Of a stretch of 64,000 nt of DNA, positions 2,837 through 51,700 are shown one piece after another. Position 1 is the first letter of the stretch. Every line of letters begins with the position of its first letter. The notes beneath the pieces were generated by a model that made no database searches, was not told the origin of the DNA, and saw only the letters and a program-made list of their open reading frames with translations. The position numbers were made by a program, and so were the translations under genes. This DNA is from Roseicella sp. DB1501 (GTDB taxonomy: Bacteria; Pseudomonadota; Alphaproteobacteria; Acetobacterales; Acetobacteraceae), in the NCBI RefSeq assembly GCF_013112485.1, contig NZ_JABFHG010000018.1, forward strand, positions 1 through 64,000. The letters are read 5' to 3'.

Positions 2837-4324
2837 ATGGACACGACCGCGCCCCGCGCCGGCGCCGCCAAGGCCGCGCCGAACATCCCGGAATTCGCCG
2901 TCTCGGAGATCGCCGGCGCCATCCGCCGCACCCTCGAGGACGCCTTCGGCCGGGTGCGCGTGCGCGGCGAGATCACCGAGCTCAAGCGCTATCCCTCCGG
3001 CCACATCTACCTCTCGCTGAAGGACGAGAACGCCAAGATCGAGTCGGTGATCTGGAAGACCTTCGTGCCGCGGCTGGCGATCAAGCCGGAGAACGGCGTC
3101 GAGGTCATCGCCACCGGCAAGATCGGCACCTATGCCGACCGCTCGAAATACCAGCTCGTCATCGACCGGCTCGAATATGCTGGCGAGGGCGCGCTGCTCG
3201 CCCGCATCGAGACGCTGCGGCTGCGCCTGCTCGGGGAAGGGCTCTTCGCACCGGAGCGCAAGCGGGCGCTGCCGGTGCTGCCGCGGGTGATCGGCGTCGT
3301 CACCTCCGAGCGCGGCGCTGTCATCCAGGACATCCGCACCACCATCGCCCGGCGCTTCCCGCGCCACCTCCTGCTCTGGCCGGTGCCGGTGCAGGGCCAG
3401 GGCGCGGCGGAGCAGATCGCCGCCGCCATCCGCGGCTTCGGCGCCATCCCGCCGGACGGGCCGGTGCCGCGCCCGGACGTGCTGATCGTCGCCCGCGGCG
3501 GCGGCAGCCTCGAGGACCTGATGGCCTTCAACGAGGAGATCGTCGTCCGCGCCGCCGCCGAGAGCCCGATCCCGCTGATCAGCGCGGTCGGGCACGAGAC
3601 GGACACGACCTTGATCGACTTCGCCGCCGACCGCCGCGCCCCGACGCCGACGGCGGCCGCCGAGATGGCCATCCCGGCCCGCGCCGACCTGCTCGCCGAC
3701 CTCGCCCAGACCGAGGCGCGGCTGCTGCAATCCGGCCGCGCCCTGCTCGACCGCGCCCGCCGCCGGCTGATGCTGGCTGAGCGCGGGTTGCCCGACCTGC
3801 CGAACCTGCTCGGCGCCCTGCGGCAGCGGCTGGAGGATCGCGGCGAGCGGCTGGCCGTCGCCCTGCCGGCGCTGGTCGAGCGCAAGCGCGGGGTGCTCGC
3901 CCGCATCGCGCCGCGCCTGCCGCATCCGCGCGAGGGCATCGCCGCCCGCCGCGCCGCGCTCGGCCTGCTCGGCCAGCGCGCCGAGGGTGCGATGCGGCGC
4001 CAGCTCGCCCGCGGCGCGGCGGCGCCGGCGCTCGCCCGCTTCTCGGCGACGCCGGTCGCGGCCCTGGCGCGGGAGAAGCGGGCCCGGCTGGAGGGGCTGG
4101 TGGCGCGGCTGGAGGGCGTCTCCTACCAGGCGGTGCTGGCGCGCGGCTTCGCCTTCGTCGCCGATGCCGAGGGCACACCGCTGGCCAGCGCCGCCGCGGT
4201 GCCGCCCGGGGAGCGGCTGGTGCTGACCTTCGCCGATGGCCAGGTGCGGGCGACCGCCGAGGGAGCGAAGGCAACGCGCCGCAAGCGCGAGGATGGCGAG
4301 CAGGATCAGGGAGCCTTGCTGTGA
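2837..4324 (+). CDS. xseA: Exodeoxyribonuclease VII large subunit
   Basis: Catalytic subunit of Exo VII, the metal-independent cytoplasmic nuclease that trims single-stranded DNA ends into oligonucleotides and works with the small subunit XseB (not in this window). The 495-residue protein has the N-terminal OB fold (about residues 18-115, [13 protein letters not shown]...[11 protein letters not shown]). The conserved catalytic stretch follows, with [16 protein letters not shown] at about 218-233 and [17 protein letters not shown] at about 248-265. The long Arg/Ala-rich helical coiled-coil region typical of XseA comes after it. The stop codon overlaps the next gene's possible GTG start by four bases, so the two are translationally coupled. 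Confidence 0.97.
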
Positions 4325-34179: not shown

Positions 34180-34461
34180 ATGCCGGACAAGCTGGCGGAG
34201 GTTTTCGAGATCGTCACGGAGATGCGGAAAGAGCAAAAGGCTCTAATCAGCATCATGCGCGACATGATCCATCCATCCCTCCTCTCGATCAAAGAGGGGC
34301 TGAACACGATGAACGAAAACCTTAACCGCGAGCCGGATAACGCCATTCAGGACTGGATCGCTTCGGTGGATGACCGCATCGACAGCGTGAAACGCCTCCT
34401 CGACACCCTACCCAAGGACACCGCGAACGAGGTCATGGTAGTGACCGGCCTTGGCCCCTAG
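34180..34461 (+). CDS. Small helical protein preceding the relaxase
   Basis: A 93-residue, predominantly helical and charged protein (MPDKLAEVFEIVTEMRKEQKALISIMRDMIHPSLLSIKEGL...IASVDDRIDSVKRLLDTL). Its stop codon shares one base with the relaxase GTG start, so the two are translationally coupled. Position and size fit a mobilisation accessory protein, but no MobC/TrwA ribbon-helix-helix motif is evident. Function unknown. Confidence 0.65.
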   Translation: MPDKLAEVFEIVTEMRKEQKALISIMRDMIHPSLLSIKEGLNTMNENLNREPDNAIQDWIASVDDRIDSVKRLLDTLPKDTANEVMVVTGLGP

Positions 34462-37430
34462 TGTTGACGTTCCGCGACATCGCAGCCGGGGCGTTGTCAG
34501 CGGCAGTTGCGCTTACCGATCATCTGTTTGAACAGACGCTCGACGACAAACATCAAGCCTTGGGTGCCTACTACGCGGGCCAGCCGGAGGGACCGGGGGG
34601 AAGTTCGGTCGCCCGCGCCCGCCTCGACATGGACCCTGCCCTTGCCGATGTGCTGGGCCTCACCCCCGGTCAGGTTGTCAGCCACAAGCAACTCACGGCG
34701 ATCCTCTCCGGTCGAAGGACGGACGGCAAAGACCTGCCCGGATCATCACGCAAGGTCAGGCGATACAAGCAAGAGGGGAAGGAGGACCGGATCAAGCTGG
34801 CGGGGATGGATCTGTGCTTCTCCGCGCCGAAGTCGTTCAGCCTAGCATGGGCCTTCGCCGAGACGGAGGCCGAGCGCGCATCCCTGATGCAGTGCCATCT
34901 CGACGCCAGGGACGCCGTGCTCCGGCACATCGAGCGCGAAATCGGGCATGGCCGCGTCGGCGCCAATGGGCAGATGACCACGGAGCCGGCGAAGCTGGCC
35001 TGGATCAGCATCGAGCATTTCACCGCCAGGCCGACAGCCACCATCACCCGGCCCGACCCGGTCACGGGCGTCATGGGGACCGAGCTTTACACCGTGCGGC
35101 AGGCCGGCGACCCGAACGTCCACAGCCACAACATCATCCCGAATGTCATGGTGACCGATAGCGGCAAGGTCGTGTCGATCAACCAGGGCTTGCTGGCGCC
35201 CAACATCCATCTCTACGGCGCGATTTATCAGGCCCTGCTGGCCGACAATCTCCGCGCCATGGGGGTGCGGGTCGATCTCTGCGACGAAAAGCGTTACGCC
35301 GTCCTGCCCGCCATCCCGAAGGAAATCTGCGCCGAATTCTCCAAGCGGACCCGCGATGCCGAAGGCGCGGCGCGGGAGGAAGCCGGGCGGCGCGGCCTCG
35401 ACTGGGACGCGATGTCGCAGGACGACCGGGTCAAGTTCCTCAAGGGCGGCGCCAAGGCGTCGAGAAAGGCCAAGACCGACGACCTCGCCGATTTCCAGTC
35501 CTGGCAGGAGCAAGCCGCCGGCTTGGGCTGGGCCCATGAAACGGTGATCGAGGGTCCACAGGCCAGCCTGGACGACGACACCAGGCGCGAAGCGGTGCGG
35601 CAGACCGCCCTCCCCCTGCTGTCGTCCATCCTCGATCGCAAAGCGGTTCTGAGCGGCAGCGAGGTCACGCTGCAGGTCGTGCGCGGCGCCATCAAATGGG
35701 GCCTCAAGGCGCTGGAGGAGTTGAAAACGGTATCGAAGATGCTCGTCCAGCACGGCATCGAGCAGGACGGCGCCCAGACCGATCTGGTCTGGACCGAGCA
35801 GGACGGCAGGGTGAAGGTCACCACCGCGCTCCATATCGGCCAGGAGCTGGAGGTCATCGACCGGACCCGCGCCCGCGCTGCTGACCTGTCCCGCGCGCTC
35901 ACCGTGGCGGAGATCGATCAATGCACGGACGGGCTCGATTTCACGACCCCTGAAGGCATGGCACAGCGCGAGGTCATGAACGCGATCGGCACCGGGGGAG
36001 AGTTCGCGGTCGCCATCGGTTCGGCTGGCGCGGGGAAAAGCGCACTGATGTCGGTCCTCACTTCCGCATGGAGACGGCGGAAGATGAAGGTCATCGGCAC
36101 CGCCCTGTCATGGAAGATCGCGCGCCGGATGGAGATGGACGAGACCTACGCCCTCGATCCCCTCATCAATCGGCTTGAGAAAGGCAAGATCGCCATCGAC
36201 CGAAACGCCGTGATCGTGATCGACGAGTTAAGCCAGATCGGGACAGTCCATCTACTCAAGCTCTTGAGGCTCCAGCAACGCTACGGCTTCAAGATCGCGG
36301 CGATAGGGGACCACCTTCAAGCTCAAAGCATAGCGGCAGGTAGTGTGATTGACCTGCTGCAACGCGCGATGCCAGAAGCCATCCCCCAGCTGCTAATCAA
36401 CATTCGCCAGAAGACCGAGCGGGAGAAGAAAATCGCCGGTCTCTTTCGTGACGGAAAGGCGGGAGACGCGATCAAGCTCAAACGCGAGGACGGCACTGCC
36501 GAACTTGTCGAAGGCGACAGGGCGGAAGCCATCGCCCGCATTGCCCAACTCGCCATGACCATGCCGGACGCTACGCTTTCCACCCCGACGAATGCCGATG
36601 CGATGGATATCGGTCGGGCGATCCGCAAACTCAAACAGGAAACCGGGGAAATATCATATCAAGAAACGCTCATAAAGGCGACCGACAATCAGGAATCCGA
36701 GCATGAGCTATCCATAGCCCAAGGGGATTGTGTGAGGTTGTTCGCCGTCACCCGTTCCTCGAAAGGCGCTGTGTTAGGGGTGAATGGGTCGGTCCTGACC
36801 GTGACGAAGGTTCACAAGACCGGGCTGGATCTAACGACCCATAAAGGCAAGACAGGCTTTGTATCGTGGGATGCGCTGAAATACGGCGGGGAACGGGTCA
36901 AGCTTGCATATGGCACGGTTTTAACAGTCGAGTCTTCCCAAGGACTGACGTCCGACAACCATATTAGCTGCTTTCCTAGCGGGACATCAAACGTCAATCA
37001 GTTTCGCGCCTATGTTTCAGCGAGCCGCCACCGCTTGGCGTCATGGATTATTGTATCGAAAGGGGCCGAGATGCTCGATATTTCAAACCGTCTCCCCTTG
37101 GGAATTAACGACCCTATCGATGACGACGCCATATGGGACCATGTTGCGTCTAATCTTTCACGCAGACCAAAGAAAGAAAATGCCGTCGATCTGTTGGAGC
37201 AGTTTGCGGAGCTAAAATCTGGCTTTGCGCAAAGTTTCCAAGCGACTTCAAGAATATTTGAGAACGAAAAGTCTGCATCGCAAGCGAGGATCATCAAAGC
37301 CAACTGCCAGTATAGCCACAAAGCGGGTTTTAGAGCTCATGACGTTTGTAATAAGAACGAAAATTCTTTACAATATGGCATCAAAACGGGTCGAATGACG
37401 TCTCACCGCCAAACGACCCTGAACATCTAA
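34461..37430 (+). CDS. MobF-family conjugative relaxase-helicase (TrwC/TraA-like)
   Basis: A 989-residue protein that would nick one strand at oriT, stay bound to the 5' end and unwind the DNA for transfer. The N-terminal relaxase has the Tyr pair in ALGAYYAG (about residue 40), FSAPKSFSLAWAF and the metal-binding VHSHNIIPNVM (about 217-227). The C-terminal RecD-like helicase has Walker A GSAGAGKSA (about 519), Walker B VIVIDELSQ (about 583), IGDHLQAQSI and motif VI VESSQGLTSDN...YVSASRHR (about 823-855). The last 400 bp are noticeably AT-rich. No type IV coupling protein or T4SS gene is present, so the element would be mobilisable rather than self-transmissible. Confidence 0.92.
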   Translation: MLTFRDIAAGALSAAVALTDHLFEQTLDDKHQALGAYYAGQPEGPGGSSVARARLDMDPALADVLGLTPGQVVSHKQLTAILSGRRTDGKDLPGSSRKVRRYKQEGKEDRIKLAGMDLCFSAPKSFSLAWAFAETEAERASLMQCHLDARDAVLRHIEREIGHGRVGANGQMTTEPAKLAWISIEHFTARPTATITRPDPVTGVMGTELYTVRQAGDPNVHSHNIIPNVMVTDSGKVVSINQGLLAPNIHLYGAIYQALLADNLRAMGVRVDLCDEKRYAVLPAIPKEICAEFSKRTRDAEGAAREEAGRRGLDWDAMSQDDRVKFLKGGAKASRKAKTDDLADFQSWQEQAAGLGWAHETVIEGPQASLDDDTRREAVRQTALPLLSSILDRKAVLSGSEVTLQVVRGAIKWGLKALEELKTVSKMLVQHGIEQDGAQTDLVWTEQDGRVKVTTALHIGQELEVIDRTRARAADLSRALTVAEIDQCTDGLDFTTPEGMAQREVMNAIGTGGEFAVAIGSAGAGKSALMSVLTSAWRRRKMKVIGTALSWKIARRMEMDETYALDPLINRLEKGKIAIDRNAVIVIDELSQIGTVHLLKLLRLQQRYGFKIAAIGDHLQAQSIAAGSVIDLLQRAMPEAIPQLLINIRQKTEREKKIAGLFRDGKAGDAIKLKREDGTAELVEGDRAEAIARIAQLAMTMPDATLSTPTNADAMDIGRAIRKLKQETGEISYQETLIKATDNQESEHELSIAQGDCVRLFAVTRSSKGAVLGVNGSVLTVTKVHKTGLDLTTHKGKTGFVSWDALKYGGERVKLAYGTVLTVESSQGLTSDNHISCFPSGTSNVNQFRAYVSASRHRLASWIIVSKGAEMLDISNRLPLGINDPIDDDAIWDHVASNLSRRPKKENAVDLLEQFAELKSGFAQSFQATSRIFENEKSASQARIIKANCQYSHKAGFRAHDVCNKNENSLQYGIKTGRMTSHRQTTLNI

Positions 37431-40986: not shown

Positions 40987-41207
40987 TGATTGCGCTCCCA
41001 CCAGCTGAAGAGGGTTACGCCGGCGCCGCCCATGCTGATCGAGGCGCTGGTCAGCAATGCCTGCGCCGGGAACTGGTCGAAGCACCAGACGAGGCCGAGG
41101 CCTGATCCGATCACCAGTAATGCAGAAACCCAAACCACGGCTTCCGGAATAGTCTGATATGGCACTCCGTTTTCAGCCTGACTGGAAACGCTTGTGTTGT
41201 CTTTCAT
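40983..41207 (-). CDS. Small membrane protein, first gene of the leftward operon
   Basis: A 74-residue protein with two probable TM helices (AVVWVSALLVIGSGLGLVWCF and AQALLTSASISMGGAGVTLFSWW). ATG 41207 has GGAG at 7 bp. It heads the nine-gene leftward operon whose promoter must lie in the AT-rich gap at 41,208-41,331. The layout resembles small inner-membrane proteins of phage immunity or exclusion regions; function unknown. Confidence 0.6.
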   Translation of the reverse strand: MKDNTSVSSQAENGVPYQTIPEAVVWVSALLVIGSGLGLVWCFDQFPAQALLTSASISMGGAGVTLFSWWERNQ

Positions 41208-41331: not shown

Positions 41332-41535
41332 ATGAATGCGTTAGAGCAATACCGAGTTGATGAGGGCTTAAACTATTCTGAGCTTGCCGCCCGCCTCAAA
41401 ACATCGCCACAGAATGTTCAGCGTTGGTGCAACGGCATCGAGCCGCGTCCCGCTGACCGGGAGATGATCGAGAAGCGCACCAAGGGTCGGGTGAAGAAGG
41501 GCGCGGTGTTGATCTATCAAGGCAAGCCTGATTGA
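41332..41535 (+). CDS. Cro/CI-type helix-turn-helix regulator
   Basis: A 67-residue DNA-binding protein. The HTH reads LEQYRVDEGLNYSELAARLKTSPQNVQRWCNGIEPRP, a compact XRE/Cro fold (residues 4-40). There is no effector or cleavage domain, so it is Cro-like rather than a full CI repressor. No ribosome site precedes ATG 41332, so translation may be leaderless or weak. It probably binds the repeats in the adjacent control region. Confidence 0.82.
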   Translation: MNALEQYRVDEGLNYSELAARLKTSPQNVQRWCNGIEPRPADREMIEKRTKGRVKKGAVLIYQGKPD

Positions 41536-41564
41536 CCGTTGTCCGGCGGGTACGGATAGCGGTG

Positions 41565-41615
41565 AGGCAGGCGCCTCAAGGCCGACAGGCCCAACAACAA
41601 AGAGGAGAGACGACC
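41565..41615 (+). promoter_or_regulatory. Two-hairpin 5' leader, copy 1
   Basis: GAGGC-AGGC-GCCTC forms a 5-bp stem with a 4-nt loop and GGCC-GACA-GGCC a second 4-bp stem. Then come CCAACAACAA and the ribosome site AGAGGAGA in front of ATG 41616. The same order and spacing recur in front of the gene at 41882. Confidence 0.6.
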
Positions 41616-41798
41616 ATGGCTGCACAGCCAAAAGCGAAAACGACGAAACCCGCCACAAAAAACCAGACCAAAAGCAAGACGCCTGTTGCAAGCAAGGCTG
41701 CTGCTGCAAAGGCGAAGGCTCCTGCGAAGAAGGCCGCGGCGAAGCCGGTGAAGACGGCCGCGAAAAAGGCGCTGGCGAAGGCGAAGAAGAAGGCCTGA
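41616..41798 (+). CDS. Histone H1-like Lys/Ala/Pro-rich DNA-binding protein
   Basis: A 60-residue protein made almost wholly of K, A, P and T (TKPATKNQTKSKTPVASKAA then AKAKAPAKKAAAKPVKTAAK). It looks like the C-terminal tail of histone H1 and the bacterial Hc1/AlgP class. Such proteins coat or condense DNA through non-specific phosphate contacts. ATG 41616 has an AGAGGAGA ribosome site within a structured leader. It may compact phage or host DNA; that is inference. Confidence 0.75.
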   Translation: MAAQPKAKTTKPATKNQTKSKTPVASKAAAAKAKAPAKKAAAKPVKTAAKKALAKAKKKA

Positions 41799-41834
41799 TT
41801 TCCCAGTGGCCCTGCTCAGCCGGGGCCACAAGGA

Positions 41835-41881
41835 AGGCAGGTGCCTTCGGCCTTCAGGCCCAATAAAAAGAGGAGAAGAGA
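41835..41881 (+). promoter_or_regulatory. Two-hairpin 5' leader, copy 2
   Basis: AAGGC-AGGT-GCCTT forms a 5-bp stem and GGCC-TTCA-GGCC a 4-bp stem, followed by CAATAAAA and AGAGGAGA before ATG 41882. Relative to copy 1, the outermost G-C pair of stem 1 is changed to A-T on both sides, a compensatory substitution. Confidence 0.62.
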
Positions 41882-42202
41882 ATGATCACGGATCAGGAGC
41901 GCGACGTCGCACTTTTGAACAGCCCAGCCGAGCGCGTCACTAAAGAGCGCATCGGTGCCATCATTATCGAGACAAAATTCATCCAGCCCGAGGGCACCTT
42001 GCTGACCTTGTGCATCCTGACACTGCGGAACGGCTTTACCGTGACAGGCGAATCTGCCTGCGCGGCACCCGAAAACTTCAACAAGGAGCTTGGCGAGAAG
42101 ATCGCCTATGACAACGCCTTCAATCAGATATGGAAGCTTGAGGGCTACCTTTTGAAAGAGGCTATCTATTTGACAGGAACAAAAGCGCAGGCGGCGGTTT
42201 GA
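41882..42202 (+). CDS. Phage Gp49-like family protein
   Basis: A 106-residue protein with the Gp49/66 phage family core: ERIGAIIIETKFIQPEGTLLTLCILTLRNGFTVTGESACAAPENFNKELGEKIAYDNAFNQIWKLEGYLLKE. Family members are common in tailed phages and have no settled biochemical function. It is translated from a strong AGAGGAGA site behind leader copy 2. Confidence 0.87.
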   Translation: MITDQERDVALLNSPAERVTKERIGAIIIETKFIQPEGTLLTLCILTLRNGFTVTGESACAAPENFNKELGEKIAYDNAFNQIWKLEGYLLKEAIYLTGTKAQAAV

Positions 42203-42380: not shown

Positions 42381-42402
42381 GATGACGGTTCCCGCCGTCA
42401 TC
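42381..42402 (+). promoter_or_regulatory. Perfect 8-bp hairpin in the cold-shock gene leader
   Basis: GATGACGG (42,381-42,388) pairs with CCGTCATC (42,395-42,402) around TTCCCG. The ribosome site AAGGAG follows 11 bp later and ATG 42423 after that. It could be a 5' stabilising stem, or a terminator of the preceding gene pair. Confidence 0.5.
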
Positions 42403-43489: not shown

Positions 43490-44017
43490 TTAGGATGCCG
43501 CATCTATCCAGTTTCTGCTCAATCCAGCCACTCGACGCATCTGATTAATTTCCTTATGTCGCCTGCCATGGCAAGTCGAACACAACCACACCACATCTAA
43601 CGGCTTCATATAATTTTCATGATGGGCTTGCACGCCTTGGCTATGGGTCAATCCGCACCGCTCACAATCACAAGGAACAAGCATTCCATATTTCATGGCT
43701 TGCCATACAATAAAATGGCAAGCGTTTTTCACGCGATTTCGACCAACCCATTCTTTTTTATGCTGACGATTAGCTTGACGCTTAACCGCATTCTTTCGTC
43801 GTTGATCCTTAACCCGCCGTCGCGCGCCTTGACGGTGTGGCAAATCGGCCCTGATCCTATCATAAGCTCGTATCTCATCAATATTTTCAAGCCTATGCTT
43901 TGCCACTCTCTTTTTTGTACATTCCTTGCAGATGTTCAGGTACCCATCTGCCATCTTATTGTGCTTATAATATTCCGACAGAGCCTTAGTTAAACGACAC
44001 CGGGCACAACATTTCAT
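43490..44017 (-). CDS. HNH endonuclease with a hidden ribosome binding site
   Basis: A 175-residue phage HNH nuclease, AT-rich relative to its neighbours. An N-terminal zinc module CCARCRLTKALSEYYKHNKMADGYLNICKECTKKR is followed by a basic linker. The catalytic domain has CDCERCG, VQAHHENYMKPLDVVWLCSTCHGRRHKE (HH and the distal His). Compact HNH genes of this kind behave as free-standing homing endonucleases. Its ribosome site AAGGAG and the AU of the AUG are inside a perfect 13-bp hairpin. It is the last gene of the leftward replication operon. Confidence 0.88.
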   Translation of the reverse strand: MKCCARCRLTKALSEYYKHNKMADGYLNICKECTKKRVAKHRLENIDEIRAYDRIRADLPHRQGARRRVKDQRRKNAVKRQANRQHKKEWVGRNRVKNACHFIVWQAMKYGMLVPCDCERCGLTHSQGVQAHHENYMKPLDVVWLCSTCHGRRHKEINQMRRVAGLSRNWIDAAS

Positions 44018-44045
44018 ATTATCTCCTTCTGCAAGGAGATAATAT
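44016..44045 (-). promoter_or_regulatory. Perfect 13-bp hairpin sequestering the HNH gene start
   Basis: ATATTATCTCCTT (44,016-44,028) and AAGGAGATAATAT (44,033-44,045) pair perfectly around a 4-nt loop. On the HNH mRNA the 3' arm holds the only Shine-Dalgarno sequence, AAGGAG, and the first two bases of the AUG. When folded it would block initiation, so translation should depend on unfolding, temperature, a protein, or transcription from a promoter inside the stem. Confidence 0.8.
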
Positions 44046-44081
44046 TACCATTGCGATGTCAGACTGTACAGTTAGAACGGA

Positions 44082-45740
44082 TTAGAAGGGGATTATATCC
44101 TCGTCGATAAACACGCCCCACTCCGCTCCCGGATTGCTTGGCGCCGCAGCCTTCACATCAGGCTCGACCGCTGCCGGCGTATAATCCTCCTTGAGGATGC
44201 GGAGATGCTCGCCTTCCTTCCGCACGAGAATCCGGCTGGGCTGCGGGTAGGGCATGTTGAGAGCCTCATCGACAGTGTCCGGGGGAAGCCGCGGCATCCG
44301 TCCCTTGTGCCATTCGACGGCCTTCTGGCGGGCGAAGCCGCCATGCTCGAAGCAGAGCCACCGGCTGATCATCTTGCCGTTCAGGGTGTGGTACGAGATT
44401 TTCAAGCTCGGCGGCCTGCCCGCTTTCTCATGCCGCATCTGCGTCATGCCGATCACGTCGAGCCATTCCGGGGCGATCTGCGTGCTCAGGATCGGGTTGC
44501 TGTAAGACTGGGCCGCGATCCTGATCTCCGGCGGCGGGAAGTCCCGCCCGCAATCCGGGCAGGATCTCGCTCCGGCATGACAGACGGCGTGGCAGTGGTC
44601 GCAGACCCGGACAGGCGCCTCGCCGCCGCCCTTGCCAGGCCTGCGGGGCTTGATCTGGTCGATGGGACCGAACCTGCCGGCGTTGTTGGCGTGATCGAGG
44701 TAGAGGCAGTTTTCCTTCCCAGGAAACGTCCTGCTGCCACGTCCCAGCATCTGGACGTAGAGCCCGGCGCTGGCGGTCGGACGCAAGCCCGCGATCAGGT
44801 CGATGCGCGGAACGTTGGTGCCTGTCGTCATGATGTCCCGGTTGGCGACAGCGCGCAGCTTGCCGTCCTTGAACGCGCGCAGGATCTGGTCGCGCTCCGC
44901 CGGCGGCGTTTCCCCCGTCACCACGGCGCACTCGATCCCATGAGCGCGAATGGCTTCTGCGACCTTATGGCTGTGGTCCACCCCGGCGCAGAAGCAAAGC
45001 CAGGTACCGCGATTGGCGCCATACTGCACGATCTCGGCGACGGCGGTTCTGGTGACCTCGTCGACATTGACAGCCGCCTCCAGCTCGCCGGCGATGAACT
45101 CCCCTCCTCGCTTATGGACACCGGACACGTCCAGCCTGGTTTCCATGTGCTTGGGGATCACCTCGCACAGGTACTTTTCCCGGATGGCGTCCAGGATGCC
45201 GTACTCGTAGGCGATATCCTCGAACAGGCGATCGTCGCCCTCGACGAGGCTGCCGGAATCAAGGCGGTAGGGCGTGGCCGACAGTCCGATGACCCGCATA
45301 TGCGGATTGATCGTGCGCAGGTCGGCGATAAAGCGATCCCACATGGTCTGCGCATTCCGGCTTACGGTATGCGCCTCGTCGATGAGCAGGACATCGCAGC
45401 GCTGGATGTCGAATGCCTTGTTGTAGACGGACTGGATGCCGACAAACAGGATGCTGGCATCGAGGTCGCGCCTGTTCAGCCCGGCGCTGTAAACGCCGGC
45501 GGGGGCGCCAGGCCATAAGTTGATGAGCTCGAGATAGTCCTGCGACACCAGGTCGCGGCTGTGCGTGGCGATGACGATCCGTGTCTCCGGCCAGGCCTGC
45601 AGGGACCGCATGCAGAAATCGGCGATAACATAGGATTTGCCGCAGCCGGTCGGGATCACGACGAGCAGGTTGTTGTCGCCGGCGTAGAGCCGCGTCATCA
45701 CGGCTTCATTCGCCGCTTTCTGGTACGGCCTAGGCTCCAT
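44082..45740 (-). CDS. Superfamily 2 DEAH-box helicase
   Basis: A 552-residue helicase of the phage UvsW/RecQ-like SF2 group that would remodel branched DNA during replication or recombination. It has Walker A PTGCGKS (30-36), the DEAH box (121-124), motif III GLSATPYR and motif VI YVQMLGRGSRTFPGKE. A zinc-ribbon pair CDHCHAVCHAGARSCPDCG and a distinctive C-terminal extension follow the helicase core. Its start overlaps the end of the Cas4-like nuclease gene, so the two are likely functional partners. Confidence 0.92.
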   Translation of the reverse strand: MEPRPYQKAANEAVMTRLYAGDNNLLVVIPTGCGKSYVIADFCMRSLQAWPETRIVIATHSRDLVSQDYLELINLWPGAPAGVYSAGLNRRDLDASILFVGIQSVYNKAFDIQRCDVLLIDEAHTVSRNAQTMWDRFIADLRTINPHMRVIGLSATPYRLDSGSLVEGDDRLFEDIAYEYGILDAIREKYLCEVIPKHMETRLDVSGVHKRGGEFIAGELEAAVNVDEVTRTAVAEIVQYGANRGTWLCFCAGVDHSHKVAEAIRAHGIECAVVTGETPPAERDQILRAFKDGKLRAVANRDIMTTGTNVPRIDLIAGLRPTASAGLYVQMLGRGSRTFPGKENCLYLDHANNAGRFGPIDQIKPRRPGKGGGEAPVRVCDHCHAVCHAGARSCPDCGRDFPPPEIRIAAQSYSNPILSTQIAPEWLDVIGMTQMRHEKAGRPPSLKISYHTLNGKMISRWLCFEHGGFARQKAVEWHKGRMPRLPPDTVDEALNMPYPQPSRILVRKEGEHLRILKEDYTPAAVEPDVKAAAPSNPGAEWGVFIDEDIIPF

Positions 45741-46446
45741 GGCAGGAGCCTCTGAAGCGGCACATGCGACATAGATAGAAGTCCGCCTTCCCGATTTTCT
45801 CGGGCGGCTCCTTCGCGCTGGCGATGCGGCGGGCTTTCTGAACCAGCGCTTCGGCGAGGATTGGATCGCACTCGGTGCGGCAGCTGTCGACGTCGCGCCC
45901 GCCCGGCGTACAGACCGTGAGATAGTGTCGCGTCAAACTGAAATAGCGCATGTAGATCTGGGCCTGCGCATGCCAAACCACATCGAAGTTCCTGAGCGCC
46001 AGCTTTTCGCCGAACGTCGCCTTCGCTTTTTGGAATTCCTTAAATTTGCGTTCGTTGACTGCTTTGTTTTCCCAAATCGACGGCGTGACCGGCTGCTGTA
46101 CTAAACCGCGCACGACACCGTCTATGTGCCCCTTGAAATCACCGTCCTCGAAGCCCCACTGCGTTCCGTCATCCTTGTGCGTCCAGAGTTCGACGCCGGG
46201 CACCAGGCGCAGGCGGGACGCAATCAGCTCCTCGGAGCGGTGACCGTCCTCGATGGCGAACAGGCCGGTCGACGGGATGGGTTCGGCCGGATAGCCATGA
46301 AAGCCGTACCAGATCTTGCGGGCGCAGGGATCGCCGATCGAGCTGGCGCCGATATAGCGGCGCGCGGGTTCCGCAGCGGCGCGTTCCTCGCAGGCGCGTC
46401 GCATGGCTTCAAGCGTCGGATCGAAATACTCAGGCAATGCGACCAT
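45730..46446 (-). CDS. Cas4/RecB-like PD-(D/E)XK nuclease with Fe-S cysteines
   Basis: A 238-residue nuclease. Four cysteines, C41 (GDPCARK) and C226, C229, C235 (LCRMCRFRGSC), form the 4Fe-4S pattern of Cas4/AddB enzymes. The nuclease core shows GHIDGVV and WENKAV (E-x-K) followed by HAQAQIYM, the QxxxY-like motif. In phages such proteins resect DNA ends for annealing by Sak4/Red-type recombinases, and a Sak4-like gene lies two genes upstream. No Cas genes or CRISPR array are nearby, so an adaptation role is unlikely. Confidence 0.88.
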   Translation of the reverse strand: MVALPEYFDPTLEAMRRACEERAAAEPARRYIGASSIGDPCARKIWYGFHGYPAEPIPSTGLFAIEDGHRSEELIASRLRLVPGVELWTHKDDGTQWGFEDGDFKGHIDGVVRGLVQQPVTPSIWENKAVNERKFKEFQKAKATFGEKLALRNFDVVWHAQAQIYMRYFSLTRHYLTVCTPGGRDVDSCRTECDPILAEALVQKARRIASAKEPPEKIGKADFYLCRMCRFRGSCHGA

Positions 46447-46494
46447 GGCGAACGGACAGGAAAGGAGCGGCCCGAAGGCCGCTCCCCCACACCC

Positions 46495-46986
46495 CTACTT
46501 CCGTGCCGCTGCCCAGGGAGCAGCGCTCGTAGCCGCGGCAGCCCCGGACGCAGGCGCTGCCGCAGAGGGCGTGTTCGACAAGGCCCTGTACTTCTTGATG
46601 CGGTTGCCGGGTCCGTAGTCACCCTTGGCCGGCGTGACGGTGACATCGATCAGCATGCGGCGATCATGCAGGTCTTCCGACCGGCTGACCGTCGTCCGGC
46701 CGACCGCACGGGTGATCTCGCCCAGCGTCTCGAATGCGATCTTGCGGGCGTCCTCGCTGGCATTGTTGAGGTTGAGCCGCTCGAAGATCTTGCGGCCTGT
46801 GTATTCGCCGTCGACGATCTCGACCGTCAGCACGACCTGCGAGCCGGTCGGGTCCTTTGAGTTGGGACCGTTCTGCTTTTCCTCGCTGGCCGTAATCATG
46901 GCCGTGTAGGTGGCAGGCGGGACGGGGGTGTAATCCGAGCGTTCCGGGATGTCGTTGGCGTTAATAGGCGATGCGAATTGAACCAT
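46495..46986 (-). CDS. DUF669 phage protein (ssDNA-binding-like)
   Basis: A 163-residue protein with the DUF669 layout: YTPVPPATYTAMITASEEKQ, VVLTVEIVDGEYTGRKIFERLNLNNASEDARKIAFETLGEITRAVG and LIDVTVTPAKGDYGPGNRIKKY. The Ala/Pro-rich tail (SNTPSAAAPASGAAAATSAAPW) resembles an SSB interaction tail. DUF669 genes are regularly next to Sak4-type recombinases and are thought to coat ssDNA. Confidence 0.9.
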   Translation of the reverse strand: MVQFASPINANDIPERSDYTPVPPATYTAMITASEEKQNGPNSKDPTGSQVVLTVEIVDGEYTGRKIFERLNLNNASEDARKIAFETLGEITRAVGRTTVSRSEDLHDRRMLIDVTVTPAKGDYGPGNRIKKYRALSNTPSAAAPASGAAAATSAAPWAAARK

Positions 46987-48953: not shown

Positions 48954-51095
48954 CTAGCCCTCAATCACCCTGTATATCTTCGTCTTGCCATCCCGATTGA
49001 TGTCGATCCGGCCGATCTCGTGCAGCGTCGATTCGACGGTATCGAGATCCCTCGGCTTCATGCGCAGGCGATGGTTCATCTGGCTGCGGGTCATGCTGCC
49101 GGCGCTGACCAGGATCTGCATGAACTGAGAGCAGGTCTTCTCGAAGTCGCTGTCGTACATGTTCTCGGTGGCGAACTTCATCATGAAGCGGATGCTCGCG
49201 CCGACCATCGACTTCCCGGTCTCGATGTCGGCGCCGGTCAGAACCGGCCGCTTGTGATCGCGGGCAATCGAGAAGATCATGGCGACCTTCAGCACGTTTT
49301 CCCGGTAACGGACCCAGAGCGCCCCCATGCCGCTCGCCTGGTGCGTTTTGATCATCTCGTCCTGGACGCGGTAGAGCTGGTTGACCTCCTCCGCCATGTC
49401 GCCGAGTAGGACGGTGACCTTCTCGGGCACGATGATGTCCGGCCCCCTGGCGAAGGACCCCTCCGGCGCGAACTGCGCCCAGCGGGTGACCAGGTGCTCC
49501 GGCGGGTCGACGCTGTTGGCCTCGAAGTTCGGTTCCGGAAAATCGGTGGCGGACTTCAGGACGACGAAGCGATTGAGCTCGCCCGACGCGATCGCCGACT
49601 TCCGCATCGCCTCGGCGTAGCTGCCCATCGTCGTGGTGCCGTAGATGCAGAGGTTGGGCTCGATCAGCGTCATGCGGTCGTCCGGCTTCCCGGCGAGCAG
49701 GCCGCCGATATATTCGGAGTCCGAGCTCGAATAGAGCTTGGTGAAGATGGACGATATCTCGCGCTGATACCCAGGCGCCTTGGGATCGAACAGCGCGCGC
49801 ATGAACAGCCCGATCTCGTCGATGTTGGCGAGGATGGAGGGCTTCTGCTTGAGCTCCATCATCAGGCCGGGGCCCGACCGGACCTCGTCCGGCCCGGAGA
49901 ACTGGCCAAGCCCCGCCATCGTCATCAGCTTCTTGACCCGCTTGCGGCTGTTGTCCTTGCCCTGGCCTGATTCGGCGATGCCGACCATGTAGATGTTGGT
50001 GCGGGTGCCGAGCTTCTGCAGGGCATAGCGGCGGCCGAAGACCGCCCCCAGCGCGGCGACGATGTTCATCGTCGTCAGCTCGGGCTGCACCTTGAAGGCC
50101 GTGCTGTTGATCCATTGCAGGGTGTCGCCGATCAGGCCGGAGATCGCCGGGGCGGCATTCACCTCGGGCAGGGGCGCCGGCGCCTGCACTGCCCGTCCGC
50201 GGCCCAGCGTCGCCGCGAATTCCCGGAAATCGATGCCATCGATGTTGGAGAGGTCGAGCGGTTGGCTCGGTTGGTCCGCCGGCTTCCAGCCCCAGCTTTG
50301 CGCCATATGGACCAGGGAGCCGAAGGAGATGCCGGCGCCGACGCGGAAGGATTGCCAGCGCCTGGCCGTCTCGCCCTGCTGGTATTTGGTCCCGCCGCGC
50401 GACCAGTTGTCCCAGATCGAAAGGGGCCAGCCCGCGTCGTTCAGCGCCATGCCGACCGCGAGCCAGTCGTCGTGCGAACAGTCCGGCGGGATGCATTCCA
50501 GCATGGTCAGGACATCGTTGACGGACCAGTCCGCATCGGGCGCCTCGACATTGCACGCGCTCAGATGGTCCTGCGGCGGCCGGACGGGCTCCGCCATAAC
50601 GATATCCATGAGCCAGGCCGGGGCGTGGCTTATGGGCGCGTGCATGGCCTCCCAGCGGTAGGGCGTGCCGCTGGCGTGGATCGATGGCGGCGCGACGATG
50701 TAGCCGCCGTCCCCCCTGGTATCGAGGTTGCGGCCGATCTTGGAGGCCCGGGACCGGACCCGCCCTGTCGCCGGCATGCGGAACAGGAGGTGTTTCCCCT
50801 TCCCCGTGATGCTGGTCAGGGTCGCCGGCAGCTTGCCGTGCTGCCGTTCCAATCCGGCGAGGGACGCCATCCCGTCATCGCCATCGACGTCCAGCACCCA
50901 GAAGCCGGACGCCGCGCCGGTGGCGATGCCGAGGTTCAGGTTGGTCCGGGTGCGCCACAGCGCCAGGATCGACGCCGCATCCTTGCGGGCGTCATGGAGC
51001 CCGTGTTCGCAGGCCGGCACCTTCGAGCGCGGCTCGACCGGGAAGACCGCCCACCCTCGTTGCCCATACTCAATCGCTATTCGCTCGGTAGACAT
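48954..51095 (-). CDS. Primase-polymerase fused to a DUF3987-like replicative ATPase
   Basis: A 713-residue replication protein. The N-terminal Prim-Pol domain has GQRGWAVFPVEPRSKVP, LNLGIATG, WVLDVDGDDG (Asp69, Asp71), GKGKHLLFRMP and GYIVAPPSIHASGTPYRW. A PriCT-2-like domain follows (TMLECIPPDCSHDDWLAVGMALNDAG...WDNWSRGGTKY). The C-terminal ATPase has ESGQGKDNS as P-loop (about 368-376), then NIDEIGLFMRALF. Together it would prime and unwind at the origin, making this the likely initiator of the element. Just upstream is an AT-rich, hairpin-rich gap. Confidence 0.9.
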   Translation of the reverse strand: MSTERIAIEYGQRGWAVFPVEPRSKVPACEHGLHDARKDAASILALWRTRTNLNLGIATGAASGFWVLDVDGDDGMASLAGLERQHGKLPATLTSITGKGKHLLFRMPATGRVRSRASKIGRNLDTRGDGGYIVAPPSIHASGTPYRWEAMHAPISHAPAWLMDIVMAEPVRPPQDHLSACNVEAPDADWSVNDVLTMLECIPPDCSHDDWLAVGMALNDAGWPLSIWDNWSRGGTKYQQGETARRWQSFRVGAGISFGSLVHMAQSWGWKPADQPSQPLDLSNIDGIDFREFAATLGRGRAVQAPAPLPEVNAAPAISGLIGDTLQWINSTAFKVQPELTTMNIVAALGAVFGRRYALQKLGTRTNIYMVGIAESGQGKDNSRKRVKKLMTMAGLGQFSGPDEVRSGPGLMMELKQKPSILANIDEIGLFMRALFDPKAPGYQREISSIFTKLYSSSDSEYIGGLLAGKPDDRMTLIEPNLCIYGTTTMGSYAEAMRKSAIASGELNRFVVLKSATDFPEPNFEANSVDPPEHLVTRWAQFAPEGSFARGPDIIVPEKVTVLLGDMAEEVNQLYRVQDEMIKTHQASGMGALWVRYRENVLKVAMIFSIARDHKRPVLTGADIETGKSMVGASIRFMMKFATENMYDSDFEKTCSQFMQILVSAGSMTRSQMNHRLRMKPRDLDTVESTLHEIGRIDINRDGKTKIYRVIEG

Positions 51096-51700
51096 TCCGG
51101 AATGAAAAACCCTTTGGCGCGCGCTCCCATCCGGGTTGAGCGGACGGAAACGCGCACCAAAGGGTTTGGTGTGAAAAACAGAATCAGATGCTCAACCCAT
51201 CCGCTGGAACGGGATTGTGCTGAAACAAGGAAACCATGGAAAGAGGGAAAAATCGGGTTAAAGGGAAACGCAACATTATTCGCTTATTCCGTCAAATTGG
51301 GGTTTACCATAAAGAAAACCACACAAACCACGAGCAAACCGCAGAGTTTTCTGTGGTTTGCTTTTCGGTGTTTATTTTCCATAGAGCGGCTCTATCTTAT
51401 TGATATTTAAGATATATATTGATATGATATAAGGTGTAAGACTGGGTCAGAATCTAAATCCGCACAATCCGCATATGACTTACCCTGAATTTAGACTTAT
51501 GGGAAAGGGTCTATATGGGCCTGGGTGTGTATAGGAAGCTGCGGTTTTGCGTTTTTCTCGTTTTTTGGCAGATTTCCGCGGGGTTGTAGCCACATAGCGG
51601 GCCCGATTTTGGTCTGCGGATTGCGGTTTGCCTTTTTTCCTTGATGCCTTGGTTCTTTTAAAATACATTTACCGCGTATTTTAGTTTACCTGGTGCCTTT
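51096..51700. other. AT-rich hairpin cluster: candidate replication origin and divergent promoter region
   Basis: A 605-bp gap with no convincing gene. It has a 17-bp inverted repeat with one mismatch (51,107-51,123 with 51,151-51,167) overlapped by CACCAAA-GGG-TTTGGTG (51,155-51,171). GGGTTGAGC (51,133-51,141) pairs with GCTCAACCC (51,190-51,198). A 12-bp hairpin at 51,334-51,361 is followed by T residues, and ATAGAGC-G-GCTCTAT lies at 51,381-51,395. Next is a tract of repeated TTGATAT/GATAT units at about 51,397-51,432, then two AATCCGCA direct repeats. It lies directly upstream of the primase-ATPase gene. Confidence 0.55.

Follow-up and report, generated by a model that had tools for sequence, protein, structure and literature searches.

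In bacteriophage T7, the RNase III substrate R1.1, which is 60 nt long and contains an internal loop, lies between genes 1.0 and 1.1; in the available text of PMC6121014 this loop is described as asymmetric (4/5), and the site is also treated in the available part of PMC4858673. In cluster K mycobacteriophages, the SAS/ESAS repeats occur directly before the start codons of unrelated nonstructural genes, with 11 to 19 SAS per genome and, in about half of the cases, an inverted repeat further upstream (PMC3203893, in its accessible portion). In that same portion, the authors see little support for RNA pairing in the ESAS repeats and favor DNA-binding sites, and the repeats are surveyed further in PMC12699233, of which a part was likewise accessible. 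Among repeated phage elements linked to start codons, we found none closer than SAS/ESAS. In phage T4, hairpins at translation initiation regions (the gene 43 operator and gene e) lie near the ribosome-binding site (RBS) and bind protein or inhibit translation, as set out in the portion of PMC3014915 that was available.

Here we describe an element that is repeated in a 64,000-nucleotide stretch of DNA from Roseicella sp. DB1501 (the window) and that recurs in a related phage contig. Computation showed four copies in two phages, with conserved and covarying pairing, an intergenic position, and an unusually open RBS in three of the four. No prior description of the element was found in the literature searched. 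Rfam gave no matches in the window at or above the gathering threshold; between 41500 and 41950 there were two matches below threshold, the better of which was to the HDV ribozyme on the other strand (17.7 versus 50 bits). The genes and parts are listed in Table 1.

Table 1. Positions of the genes and element parts, in window coordinates except for the last two rows, which are in coordinates of the viral contig L037.
Feature	Position	Strand	Remarks
YdaS/Cro-like gene	41332-41535	+	Stop codon TGA at 41533-41535
Copy 1, GCCTGATT box	41526-41533	+	End of YdaS/Cro-like gene; 5' strand of outer helix
Copy 1, long hairpin	41526-41572	+	Outer helix GCCTG/CAGGC; inner helix 41535-41545/41553-41563; RNAalifold consensus
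Copy 1, stem 1	41563-41578	+	TGAGGC-AGGC-GCCTCA; compensatory pairs; alternative to the outer helix of the long hairpin
Copy 1, stem 2 mini-hairpin	41580-41591	+	GGCC-GACA-GGCC; P 0.99-1.00 in five contexts
Copy 1, A-rich linker and Shine-Dalgarno	41592-41615	+	GAGGAG at 41602-41607; ATG at 41616
H1-like Lys/Ala-rich gene, 60 aa	41616-41798	+	Flanked by module copies; stop codon at 41796-41798
Copy 2, GCCTGATT box	41793-41800	+	Contains the H1-like stop codon (41796-41798)
Copy 2, long hairpin	41793-41842	+	5 bp, 2x2 loop, 4 bp, 2x2 loop, 9 bp
Copy 2, stem 1	41833-41848	+	GAAGGC-AGGT-GCCTTC; compensatory pairs
Copy 2, stem 2 mini-hairpin	41849-41860	+	GGCC-TTCA-GGCC; P 0.00 to 1.00 over five contexts
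Copy 2, A-rich linker and Shine-Dalgarno	41861-41881	+	GAGGAG at 41870-41875; ATG at 41882
gp49-like gene, 106 aa	41882-42202	+	PF13876, Pfam E 6.4e-28
L037_H1 copy	3606-3666		Before H1-like gene; R1 37.9 bits
L037_gapR copy	3868-3928		Before GapR-domain gene (PF10073, E 6.3e-27); R1 23.7 bits

The two window copies belong to a rightward run that reads YdaS/Cro-like gene, copy 1, H1-like gene, copy 2, gp49-like gene, a 56-aa frame, a cold-shock gene, and an MT-A70 methyltransferase gene. Both copies are intercistronic because they are placed within this run, and where an earlier note on this DNA had taken them for mRNA 5' leaders, they are rather units that start at the stop codon of the upstream gene. 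A scan for sigma-70-like promoters, the one promoter type that it covered, scored none between 40900 and 43500. The H1-like label describes composition only, with no match in Pfam or PHROG. Leftward frames close by encode helicase, DUF669, AAA_24, and Prim-Pol proteins. The phage-like region is adjoined by a TrwC-type relaxase gene (34461-37430), where an IMG/VR viral contig (L003 offset) starts.

The earlier note had drawn each copy as two small hairpins, an A-rich linker, a Shine-Dalgarno (SD) sequence, and an ATG. Both leaders exist with this order of parts, at coordinates that were correct to within one or two bases. The compensatory change claimed for stem 1 is also present, but the stem has six pairs rather than five, and it is not the outer pair alone that has changed on both sides but two pairs (T-A/G-C and G-C/A-T). 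When four random substitutions were distributed over the 12 positions of this stem, all pairs remained standard in 1.2% of trials. The four pairs of stem 2 (GGCC/GGCC) are invariant in all four copies, and since they never vary, covariation is uninformative on this stem, which is conserved only. Compared with shuffles, the short leaders alone are modestly stable (z = -2.0 and -1.9), and two adjacent small hairpins occur at 53 places on the plus strand and 54 on the minus strand of these 64 kb of GC-rich DNA. The double-hairpin architecture alone is therefore common, and the interest of the element lies in the shared sequence and in its relatives. A covariance model built from copies 1 and 2 (R1) gave, by construction, high scores for these copies (78 and 72 bits), but the next-best match in the window reached 10 bits, and the model also found copies in another phage; the shared sequence is not due to chance.

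The similarity between the copies reaches about 40 nt further upstream than first drawn, up to the preceding stop codon. In the three-copy alignment, an 8-nt box (GCCTGATT) located 37 to 40 nt 5' of stem 1 is identical at all eight positions in copies 1 and 2 and in L037_H1. On these three copies, RNAalifold selected stem 2 and a long hairpin that pairs the box with the CAGG of stem 1; stem 1 itself was not selected. In all four clear copies, the helix spans about 20 to 25 base-pair steps with internal loops, as counted on the folds, and the upstream stop codon falls within the 5' strand of the long hairpin. The internal loops are 2x2 in every one of them, that of copy 1 being at another place.

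For segments picked after the fold was seen, the long hairpin reached z scores against dinucleotide shuffles of -5.66 in copy 1, -3.75 in copy 2, -3.69 in L037_H1, and -7.39 in L037_gapR, with 0, 3, 3, and 0 of 1,000 shuffles, respectively, folding as well. Larger segments gave weaker values (-3.4 for copy 1 and -1.9 for copy 2). The best 50-nt folds of the copies lay in the lowest 0.05%, 0.04%, 0.12%, and 0.00% of same-region folding windows. Among the 14 strongest local folds listed between 33001 and 56000, copy 2 was 7th and copy 1 was 10th, and others were equally strong; in L037, the long hairpins ranked 1st and 3rd.

Other structured sites were seen in the window. On the minus strand at 51107-51167, a 27-pair hairpin (G-U included) has a 3' end that runs into a T-run and ends 11 nt before the Prim-Pol start codon (ATG at 51095, minus strand); the fold of 51080-51170 has an energy of -53.3 kcal/mol (z = -7.8), and, standing immediately 5' of the primase gene, the site resembles an attenuator or terminator. 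At 44005-44055 on the same strand, a 13-bp mismatch-free hairpin (z = -7.45) holds the SD sequence and the first part of the ATG of the gene at 43490-44017, which encodes a Cys/His-rich protein of 175 aa that is HNH-like by eye and has no Pfam match. The RBS of the phage homing endonuclease gene mobE is reportedly hidden by a hairpin. Also on the minus strand, a strong UUCG-capped hairpin (46436-46510; z = -2.9) lies directly 5' of a 238-aa gene (45730-46446). At 42381-42402, a 9-bp hairpin follows a stop codon and precedes the cold-shock gene (region z = -3.0).

The related phage contig, L037 (IMGVR_UViG_3300024998_000191), encodes an MT-A70 protein that is 64% identical to that of the window. 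R1 was run on 98 loci with relatives of the neighboring genes, one of which was the window's own contig and for which the best 80 of 185 MT-A70 relatives were used; over the whole 45-kb L037 record, at E values of up to 1, it listed only the H1 and gapR copies. A second model (R2), trained on the long hairpin of three copies with L037_gapR left out and run on 91 loci, gave 92.1 bits for L037_H1, which is a training row, and 45.1 bits for L037_gapR, which is outside the training set (E = 1.1e-8 over 0.9 Mb). The module flanks the H1-like gene on both sides in each of the two phages. The gene order differs, with gp49 located 3' of the H1-like gene in the window and 5' of it in L037. The gp49 proteins of the two are 58% identical over 101 aa, and BLASTP between the H1-like proteins, which are of low complexity, gave no significant match. 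The downstream genes are unrelated, as had been claimed (H1-like, gp49, and, in L037, GapR), and the proposal that the leader was duplicated or captured as a module is likewise supported. Stem 1 is missing from the L037_gapR copy, in which the downstream arm is absent.

Covariation was assessed on two alignments, namely, A5, which is fitted and favors its own structure, and A4, an unfitted three-copy MAFFT alignment. On A5, 96.4% of 84 cells are paired, compared to 28 to 47% for six slid versions, and 10 of the 17 pairs of the long hairpin differ at both partners; 0 of 500 shuffles came out as high. On A4, 88.9% of 63 cells are paired, with changes on both sides in 6 of 17 pairs (1 to 6 of 500 shuffles). 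Parts of the middle segment, which is the 5' half of stem 1, covary with both of its alternative partners. Pairing that is conserved with compensatory changes is a sign of the selection for RNA structure that the earlier note had claimed. To our knowledge, few repeated RNA elements in DNA phages have covariation support.

The covariance-model search of phages and genomes that had been suggested yielded homologs in one related phage, L037, and no convincing copies in genomes of the family. The outcome that the note had named as refuting, a lack of further homologs in related phages, did not occur, by virtue of this one phage. Run with strict filters on 299 family genomes, the window's own included, R1 listed 15 places beyond the window with E values of up to 0.1 per genome, fewer than the roughly 30 expected by chance; none of them has the sequence of both stems, and they were not counted as copies. 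Seven of the places (L013, L015, L017, L020, L023, L024, and L027) end on the start codon of a frame of 140 codons or more, so that some may be ordinary gene leaders; across 14 of the 15, one strand has an open frame of at least 165 codons, which is weak coding evidence in GC-rich DNA. In 385 genomes of the class, three places outside the window had E values of up to 0.003, with about one expected; by eye, L152 is an ordinary leader, L154 is at a gene junction, and L153 lacks stem 2. With R1, no convincing chromosomal relatives were found beyond the window in the 299 family and 385 class genomes. R2 gave a single place outside the window in the 299 family genomes at E values of up to 0.01 (G297; 32.9 bits), which lies opposite a long membrane-protein-like frame and was judged to be a chance match.

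Pattern searches extended the set by candidates. The first viral search returned the window's own contig and three matches judged to be due to chance, a search with the stem 1 pattern returned the window's own contig and nothing else, and a search of genome contigs returned one Chloroflexota locus. A further pattern gave 14 contigs, two of which are those of the window and L037; among the other 12, L138 and L141 are plausible by eye. In both of these viral contigs, the GGCC mini-hairpin is followed by an A-rich linker and then by a start codon, as in the module. Since their R2 scores (31.1 bits at 1208-1265 in L138 and 25.2 bits at 631-685 on the minus strand of L141) come mainly from stem 2 and the linker, and since L138 has no clear SD sequence, they are candidates only and possibly distant relatives. 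Together with the gp49 leader of L037, they are weak candidates for the module at single genes away from H1-like genes. Another locus, L147, was judged to be coding. A scan of 1.9 Mb on both strands for 16 GC-tetramer hairpins followed by an A-rich linker, an SD sequence, an ATG, and 40 codons, designed after the copies were known, gave five matches, i.e., the four copies and L141, which had been fetched earlier with such a pattern. BLASTN of the leaders against phages and plasmids gave only E values of 2 or more. The gp49 relatives L030 and L011 showed no such leader on reading, and L031 to L033 were covered by the R2 search only. An integron attC site was also considered and dropped; its end motifs were not seen by eye.

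The RBS is predicted to be unpaired at 0.65 in copy 1, 0.74 in copy 2, 0.50 in L037_H1, and 0.67 in L037_gapR. The background, which consisted of 62 ATG frames of the window with 100 aa or more and an SD-like site, not all of which are genes, had a mean of 0.38, a standard deviation of 0.11, and a 95th percentile of 0.53; three of the four copies are unusually open by this measure, and L037_H1 is under the 95th percentile. In other contexts, the values were 0.48 to 0.64 for copy 1 and 0.76 to 0.82 for copy 2, and they were 0.48 to 0.82 over all free folds. The gp49 start in L037, which has no long hairpin, has an RBS that is unpaired at 0.60; because this RBS is open without the hairpin, the hairpin is not required for openness.

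We tentatively propose that the element is a portable intercistronic RNA module of phage operons, about 90 nt in length, that serves in processing or stability and insulates translation, like the RNase III sites of T7. The unit consists of a long hairpin of about two turns at the preceding stop codon, the GGCC mini-hairpin, an A-rich single strand, a strong SD sequence, and the ATG. The long hairpin would be the site cut by a double-strand-specific nuclease, and the analogy with T7 early mRNA suggests RNase III or a similar enzyme. Cleavage would leave the upstream message with a hairpin that shields its 3' end, and the new 5' end would be capped and insulated by the mini-hairpin. As an outcome of cleavage and capping, the downstream genes, three of the four of which encode DNA-binding or basic proteins, would each be translated strongly and independently of one another. 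The order of the parts, with two helical turns of hairpin beginning at the stop codon and a small hairpin before a strong RBS that is predicted to be open, fits an element that separates the fates of neighboring messages, which in T7 early mRNA is the work of RNase III sites. The module is short, extends from the stop codon of one gene to the start codon of the next, and is found before genes that are unrelated to one another. If our proposal is right, it would therefore illustrate how a single reusable part lets phages express neighboring genes independently.

The overlap of the long hairpin with the stop codon would also allow a translation-dependent flip to stem 1, and a translation-coupling switch is the second-ranked explanation, although we consider it unlikely. 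The middle segment (CAGG and what follows, the 5' half of stem 1) would pair with either the stop-codon box or the downstream GCCTC-like arm; a ribosome ending the upstream gene would cover the box, stem 1 would form, and the downstream arm would be kept from the SD sequence. Folding with 60 nt of upstream sequence gave stem 1 probabilities of 0.85, 0.86, and 0.97 in copy 1, copy 2, and L037_H1, respectively, and with 100 nt, these fell to 0.01, 0.04, and 0.42 as the box paired with the stem region at 0.78, 0.77, and 0.51. The fold that had first been drawn is half right, with an invariant stem 2 but a stem 1 that at that length is no longer the preferred structure. When the stop-codon region was held unpaired, stem 1 returned in the minimum-energy folds of copies 1 and 2 and L037_H1, and the partial covariation of the middle segment with either partner also counts in favor of a switch. 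However, in the partition function with 200 nt upstream, box pairing was kept in copy 1, was 0.40 in copy 2, and was gone (0.00) in L037_H1, and the GapR copy has no downstream arm with which to switch. The second rank reflects above all the small predicted change in SD openness, from 0.34-0.65 to 0.50-0.73 in copy 1, 0.79-0.99 to 0.83-0.98 in copy 2, 0.48-0.49 to 0.48 in L037_H1, and 0.53-0.67 to 0.66-0.67 in L037_gapR.

Somewhat less likely again is the two-hairpin leader as first drawn, which would either be recognized by an RNA-binding protein of the phage or the host or serve as a 5' cap. The changes on both sides of stem 1 among copies 1 and 2 and L037_H1 and the invariance of stem 2 agree with it, but RNAalifold prefers the long hairpin, the GapR copy does without stem 1, and both loops vary, which counts against a protein that reads the loops. 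On A5, this structure is 88.2% paired, no better than shuffles, 93 of 500 of which do as well, in a test weakened because L037_H1 is out of the stem 1 register there by one base. The gp49 leader of L037 (3153-3227) is a weak fifth candidate (R2, 13.8 bits; E = 0.0019 over 1.2 kb with full scoring), and a weak match in L140 (1825-1900) is this same leader. It has CCCAAAAACAA in common with the neighboring leader and keeps two small abutting hairpins, followed by CCCAAAAACAAATAAGGA and the ATG, with no long hairpin and a fold no better than that of shuffles (z = 0.4). It may be a diverged fifth copy that lacks the long hairpin. As such, it speaks for the two-hairpin picture and against the long hairpin as universal, and it led us to shift a little weight from our proposal to the two-hairpin leader.

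More doubtful still is a portable, translation-responsive switch whose 5' strand is formed in part by the stop codon of any gene that it follows. A ribosome terminating there would convert the long hairpin into the short one and so determine both the processing and the start rate of the next gene, and phages would shuttle the switch together with nucleoid-protein genes (H1-like and GapR). A transcription-level element of the rightward operon, whether for antitermination (put/nut-like) or attenuation, is improbable. Two-stem RNA antiterminators exist (HK022 put), and a place 3' of a Cro-like gene would suit one; however, no intrinsic terminator was scored on the plus strand at copy 1 or copy 2 (the single plus-strand site is 41168-41190), no T-run lies 3' of the module hairpins, and the presence of two copies at a distance of 270 nt, with an SD sequence no more than 30 nt from each, fits translation or processing better. 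Least probable of all is a recombination joint without RNA function, which would explain an H1-like cassette bounded by repeats in both phages in differing gene order and would make the folds by-products, but the inner helix differs between copies and yet pairs in each, whereas recombination repeats would keep sequence and not pairing.

The processing module that we favor can be set against each of the described systems. The T4 elements, as far as the available text describes them, are likewise phage hairpins near the RBS, but the RBS of the module is predicted to be open rather than hidden, being unpaired at 0.50 to 0.74 where hiding of the T4 kind would have it paired. Compared with SAS/ESAS as presented in the accessible portion of their description, the module has pairing that covaries and two clear copies per phage rather than 11 to 19 SAS per genome; the 13-bp SAS (GGGATAGGAGCCC) had 0 matches at up to two mismatches in the window and L037. 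A further likeness is to the T7 RNase III sites (R0.3 to R1.3). No sequence shared with them was noticed, and there are differences of form: the internal loop of R1.1 is described as asymmetric (4/5) in the text available and those of the module are small and symmetric, and the module adds the invariant GGCC mini-hairpin, the A-rich linker, and a stop codon at the base of the hairpin. The T7 regions before genes 0.3, 0.5, 1, 1.1, and 1.3 folded comparably, into hairpins with an upper helix of about 9 to 13 bp; we take these five gene junctions to be the places of the RNase III sites, which are not annotated in the T7 record used. All four clear copies of the module have a hairpin of about two helical turns where two genes adjoin, 5' of the following RBS, and the L037 gp49 candidate has none. 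What the module and the T7 sites have in common is a phage early operon in which a long, irregular hairpin stands right before an RBS.
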